Virus record (IMG/VR): IMGVR_UViG_3300006790_000106
Coordinates: 1 to 25,010 of that record
Length of the DNA stretch: 25,010 nt
From: a virus
Reading direction: 5' to 3' (one strand)
Below the pieces are notes generated by a model, which saw only the letters and a list, made by a program, of their open reading frames with translations, had not been told where the DNA came from and did not search any database. Position numbers and translations under genes: made by a program. How positions within the stretch are numbered: the stretch's first letter is position 1; the number at the start of each line of letters is the position of its first letter. Of this stretch, positions 1-492 are shown one piece after another.

Positions 1-282
1 AGCTAGATTTGAACTAGCATCTGTATTAAGGGTTTAAATTACATTTGACAATCTTATCGACTTACTGTACAGGTAATTCTTACAAAAGCAATCTAATTCA
101 CTAACTTAAAATCTCTATCAGTTCGACTGTGTACATCAGTAGGCGACTTTCAAGCAACATGTTTTAACATTTAAACTACAGATGGTTTTTGAATCTTCCA
201 GTATTACATTGTCTTTTTAGACCTGGAGATGTTGTTTATTTCTTATATCTTTTATATAGGTAATTACTTAAGTTACATAAAA
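1..282. other. Non-coding stretch, function unknown
   Basis: I find no convincing reading frame here on either strand; the longest candidates are 11-49 codons and lack a recognisable leader. There are several short inverted repeats. One is at about 191-230, where ATCT-CCAG type arms enclose an inner GTCT/AGAC hairpin. Another is a perfect five-base-pair stem with a seven-base loop at 2-18. The stretch lies downstream, in the minus sense, of the terminator at 283-315. It could hold small RNAs or degenerate tRNA-like sequence, but I cannot identify any. Confidence 0.4.
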
Positions 283-315
283 ATAAAAGCTCCAACAGTC
301 CGCCAGAGCTTTTAT
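283..315 (-). terminator. Intrinsic terminator, probably bidirectional
   Basis: A perfect ten-base-pair stem (283-292 with 306-315, core AAAAGCTC/GAGCTTTT) encloses a 13-base loop. Read on the minus strand it is followed by a T-rich run (TTTTATTTTTAT), which fits termination of the leftward transcripts. The plus-strand side has only TTTTATA. The loop contains the CAACAGTCCG segment (293-302) that is exactly complementary to 474-483. Confidence 0.75.
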
Positions 316-483
316 ACCTACAACTACTCTTCAACGTGTTACATCTACCTATCGTTGGTCGAGCCTAAGATATGATGTGTTATAGGATTAGTATTTTATT
401 CGGTTGTTAAAAAGGGAAATTTCATCCCTCTACAACTGCATGCATTTCTCACCGTACTGTAGTTGTTATCCTACGGACTGTTG
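293..483 (-). ncRNA. Candidate structured non-coding RNA
   Basis: No reading frame of useful size exists here, but complementary segments are dense. The ten bases at 474-483 pair exactly with 293-302, which form the loop of the terminator at 283-315, giving a pseudoknot-like closure. Inside are a nine-pair stem with one wobble (432-440 with 458-466), a five-pair stem with a seven-base loop (413-417 with 425-429), a TAGGAT/ATCCTA pairing (383-388 with 468-473) and a CAACG/CGTTG hairpin near 333-356. It lies directly after the 26-residue minus-strand gene and ends in the terminator, so it could be a 3' UTR-derived RNA or an independent small RNA. No known RNA family is recognised. Confidence 0.4.
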
Positions 484-492
484 ATAATAAAT

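Follow-up and report, generated by a model that had tools for sequence, protein, structure and literature searches.

A candidate small-RNA gene with a repeated 5′ box and its own intrinsic terminator in a Crassvirales contig

Phages encode small RNAs that end in intrinsic terminators, such as RNA C and RNA D of phage T4. The prophage Pas sRNAs of E. coli are reported to be likewise phage-encoded small RNAs with intrinsic terminators (PMC13192938). Literature searches largely outside subscription journals turned up no description of such non-coding RNAs for crAss-like phages.

The window, i.e. the whole stretch of DNA analysed here (25,010 nucleotides), is a 25-kb viral contig with terminase, portal and capsid proteins that match PHROGs head-and-packaging families. 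Its capsid protein is similar to gp32, the major capsid protein in PDB 7qof (E 1.6e-115), and to those of Bacteroides, Flavobacterium and other crAss-like phages, with best identities of about 43-44%, and the phage is therefore assigned to the Crassvirales by sequence similarity. The structural genes run rightward from 2022, whereas the region between 1493 and the left end of the window is occupied by small genes in leftward orientation; the candidate RNA locus sits within this leftward block (Table 1). Leaders like AACTTATCAATTATG are found at 567-587 and 695-715 of the window and at many sites between 700 and 2600 of L008, another Crassvirales contig, where they precede many small minus-strand ORFs and probably represent their translation start region.

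Table 1. Features at and around the candidate RNA locus (window coordinates).
Feature	Position	Strand	Remarks
Entire conserved unit (candidate sRNA gene)	280..416	minus	96.4% identical to L008:1235->1099; flanks unrelated
Intrinsic terminator	283..315	minus	15-pair stem, 3-base loop, then T-rich tail; 293-302 is upper stem
Structured body	316..391	minus	closing stem CCTATAAC/GTTGTAGG, inner stem, exposed segment CTTAGGCTCGACCAACG; R1 consensus structure
Conserved 5′ box CCCTTTTTAACAACCGAATAAAATA	392..416	minus	may act as promoter or as 5′ tag
Terminator-like hairpin AGAGGGA/TCCCTTT	about 411-431	minus	mostly inside the 5′ flank
Non-conserved 5′ flank	417..492	minus	10-mer partner 474-483, 8-mer partner 459-466; absent from L008
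Small upstream ORF, 26 aa	493..573	minus	leader AACTTATCAATTATG common to other minus-strand ORFs

The minus strand from 416 to 280 is rather likely to be an autonomous small-RNA gene of a Crassvirales phage, about 130-135 nt long and so far an orphan. This reading is supported, first, by the boundaries of the conserved block: homology between the window and L008 ends with the box at one edge and with the T-run of the terminator at the opposite one, the small genes beyond these edges are not the same, and nothing in L008 matches 417-490. Second, the unit is 96% identical in two genomes that are about 70% identical elsewhere, and it ranks first among all aligned 137-base stretches of the two contigs, for which the next best value is 88% and the median 70%. 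Third, stops occur in all frames on both strands across the window and L008; a single long plus-strand frame was rejected as coding since it is broken by a stop in L008, and the statement of an earlier note that the interval holds no reading frame was borne out. The locus thus holds a delimited unit that is conserved, does not code for protein and carries a terminator, as expected of a phage small-RNA gene. A marker-gene scan returned no third contig that reaches the locus, leaving L008 as the sole sequence found with it, and the high identity could reflect recent transfer instead of constraint.

On the minus strand, the box TTTTTAACAACCGAATAAAATA is followed by a short single-stranded tail, a closing stem of eight pairs, an inner stem, the exposed segment CUUAGGCUCGACCAACG and the terminator, and about 70 nt between box and terminator form a domain closed by a stem. 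The strong minus-strand terminator predicted from 315 to 283 was confirmed by a terminator scan, which recovers it in the window and in L008; its presence in both contigs argues for a small-RNA gene. The scan, single-sequence folds and the two-sequence consensus agree on a stem of 14-15 pairs (the count of 15 includes G-U pairs) and a loop of 3-5 bases, which makes it an ordinary, though long, terminator. In L008, its upper stem carries two A/G differences, both of which face a U and keep the pairing as A-U or G-U. All 38 pairs (100%) of the R1 consensus form in both contigs, and three of the five differences between the window and L008 fall in stems and break no pair, including one in the stem of the structured body that again exchanges A-U and G-U. 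This pattern is counted in favour of a small-RNA gene; kept pairs in two near-identical sequences are consistent with the fold without proving it and do not amount to covariation in the strict sense. The unit also folds better than its shuffles, in L008 with a z-score of -4.3 and, more moderately, in the window with one of -2.1, which supports the same reading; the signal comes mostly from the terminator, and the body alone in the window folds no better than shuffles. The comparison with Rfam that the earlier note had proposed gave no match at or above the curated cut-off among 4227 families, only weak sub-threshold ones.

The terminator also bears on the simplest alternative, that the locus consists only of an operon-end terminator and an AT-rich spacer and produces no distinct RNA. 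Although the scan detects more intrinsic terminators between the small minus-strand ORFs of the window, as this explanation would expect, it leaves unaccounted for about 100 upstream non-coding bases that are kept at 97% while the neighbouring genes differ, and is considered very improbable.

The box occurs once in the window and three times in L008 (at 342, 576 and 1231, all on the minus strand and within 0.9 kb). One L008 copy heads the shared unit and the two others head different non-coding stretches, one of which folds better than shuffles; this recurrence in front of non-coding sequence is a further argument for a small-RNA gene. Of these two stretches, one comprises 231 nt with several predicted hairpins and is not better folded than shuffles (z -1.2); the other is closed by a 17-pair stem (z -3.6) and belongs to the leader of an ORF that is truncated where the contig ends. 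The gene that follows the first box and runs off the contig (L008:170-1) resembles by eye an HD-type (SpoT/MESH1-like) hydrolase. A role of the box as general phage promoter was rejected, because it is absent from 61 kb of contig G001, which is 99.99% identical to the window where compared. The other relatives checked also lack the box, except for one match with three mismatches in G015. Further box matches in exact-pattern scans of IMG/VR look accidental and lie mostly in coding genes, and the same verdict was reached for every exact-pattern match beyond L008 in IMG/VR and bacterial genomes, most of which are inside coding genes. Three related contigs (L036, L037 and L039) contain an 18-base box-like sequence just behind the end of an apparent integrase gene in Bacteroides-like elements; this similarity is probably due to chance.

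We infer that transcripts of this class may use the box as their promoter or carry it as a 5′ tag. A more speculative proposal, which we regard as rather unlikely, is that a group of small RNAs and leader RNAs of the Crassvirales share one dedicated 5′ box, which the remainder of the sampled genome does not use and which might be the promoter for a phage-specific RNA polymerase or factor, and that in the window phage one of these RNAs gained a self-made antiterminator segment. Alternatively, the unit may be a cassette of DNA that moves or is shuffled, with the box as recombination site, instead of a regulatory RNA gene. The different neighbours in the two contigs, combined with near identity, would fit recent movement of such a cassette, as would the same orientation of the box copies in L008. 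On the other hand, the unit ends exactly at the T-run of the terminator, the two remaining boxes of L008 are followed by other sequences, and no recombinase is seen nearby, the left arm being cut by the contig end; a cassette therefore appears unlikely.

The earlier note had proposed an RNA of about 200 nt with its 5′ end near 483, in which this end pairs with the terminator loop in a pseudoknot. The ten bases at 474-483 (CGGACTGTTG) are indeed the exact reverse complement of 293-302, and the 10-mer has only these two sites in the window; the complement of the corresponding L008 terminator segment has no other occurrence in L008. In both sequences, however, 293-302 is mostly the upper stem of the 15-pair hairpin, whose loop comprises three bases. 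In addition, 474-483 is absent from L008, and the proposed partner therefore lies outside the conserved unit; with the partner missing from the sole relative that has the locus, the predicted compensatory changes were not found. The proposed pseudoknot thus does not belong to the conserved gene and is probably a local feature or an accident. The extent of 200 nt and the 5′ end near 483 are equally unsupported; the part of the proposal that finds support, in the conservation of 280-416, is a structured small minus-strand RNA with its own terminator.

When the whole 213-nt strand (278-490) is folded with a program that cannot draw pseudoknots, the lowest-energy structure uses the 10-mer pairing, which displaces the terminator stem and leaves its 3′ arm free. 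A second complement of eight bases (459-466 with 320-327) is collinear and nested with the 10-mer. These observations could indicate that the window RNA reads through from about 490 and that CAACAGTCCG...ACAACTAC pairs with the 3′ strand of the closing stem and the upper terminator stem, forming a switch that antiterminates read-through or masks the RNA. The nested total of 10+8 is reached in 0/3000 shuffles of the 5′ segment, which speaks for the switch; that the score and gap limits were chosen after the sequence had been seen counts against it. Judged by folding energy, the attraction between 5′ segment and unit is less telling than this count: 7/400 shuffles and 5/200 real phage segments match it, a level of about 2% that also weighs against the switch. 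An antiterminator leader should conserve a mutually exclusive upstream pairing together with its terminator, and this pairing is possible in the window but missing in L008. As a terminator-like hairpin also separates the 5′ segment from the unit, the switch is doubtful. The chances are about even that the 10+8 complement is functionless, either what is left of a small inverted duplication that involved the 3′ part of the unit or a coincidence, which would be compatible with a small-RNA gene. By sequence inspection, both runs keep the order expected of an inverted copy in which about 10 bases between them are lacking, and inverted repeats of 10 nt or more without a mismatch arise within the 201 bases in 8/400 dinucleotide shuffles (2%), the repeat being itself a selected observation. 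The duplication is deduced from 18 matching bases and a poorly matching middle, and nothing dates it.

ARAGORN called no tRNA near the locus at its normal threshold, even when introns were allowed. Perfect hairpins resembling a tRNA T-arm are present on the minus strand at 2-18 of the window and about 1897-1913 of L008, with the loops TTCAAAT and TTCGATT, respectively; neither is surrounded by a callable tRNA, and the window copy is cut by the contig end. Distant Crassvirales relatives contain a tRNA with the anticodon CTA (L019:1484-1557, L023:5333-5406 and L026:5648-5723), which ARAGORN calls Pyl. It is probably an amber suppressor and suggests stop-codon reassignment. In another contig, 17 tRNA genes form a dense cluster just upstream of the terminase block (L011:4517-7216).

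For the small-RNA gene, the following course of events can be proposed. The RNA polymerase would begin at the box or beside it, where the terminator-like hairpin of the small ORF upstream has just ended, and would stop at the 15-pair terminator, yielding an RNA of about 130 nt. This RNA would consist of a single-stranded 5′ tail, a stem-closed domain that exposes the conserved segment, and a stable 3′ terminator hairpin, which is the architecture of a regulatory RNA that is produced in the course of infection and acts in trans; the pairing of 474-483 would not be needed. The unit with its boundaries and conservation, the box repeats and the terminator are seen directly in the sequences; the promoter, the transcript and the regulatory role are inferred. 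Counting against such a gene are the number of sequences, two, the large share of the terminator in the folding signal, the lack of a match to the host-type Bacteroidota promoter TTTG/TAnnTTTG at or near the box, and the lack of an exact base-pairing target of at least 11 bases elsewhere in the window or in contig L003. With 96% identity between otherwise divergent genomes, the unit is a concrete target for RNA-seq, and its box might lead to a promoter used by these phages.

Among known systems, the locus resembles terminator/antiterminator leaders, such as attenuators and riboswitch expression platforms, in that a segment upstream in the window could base-pair with a portion of the terminator hairpin. 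In contrast to these leaders, the pairing is not conserved, Rfam gives no aptamer match above cut-off and no downstream gene is shown to be controlled. From the phage small RNAs, i.e. RNA C and RNA D of T4 and the Pas sRNAs, the unit differs by its occurrence in the Crassvirales, by its own repeated 5′ box and by the lack of a detected Rfam relation, and it is known here from sequence alone. It shares with them that it is short, non-coding and structured, that it lies between small phage genes, and that it ends in an intrinsic terminator.
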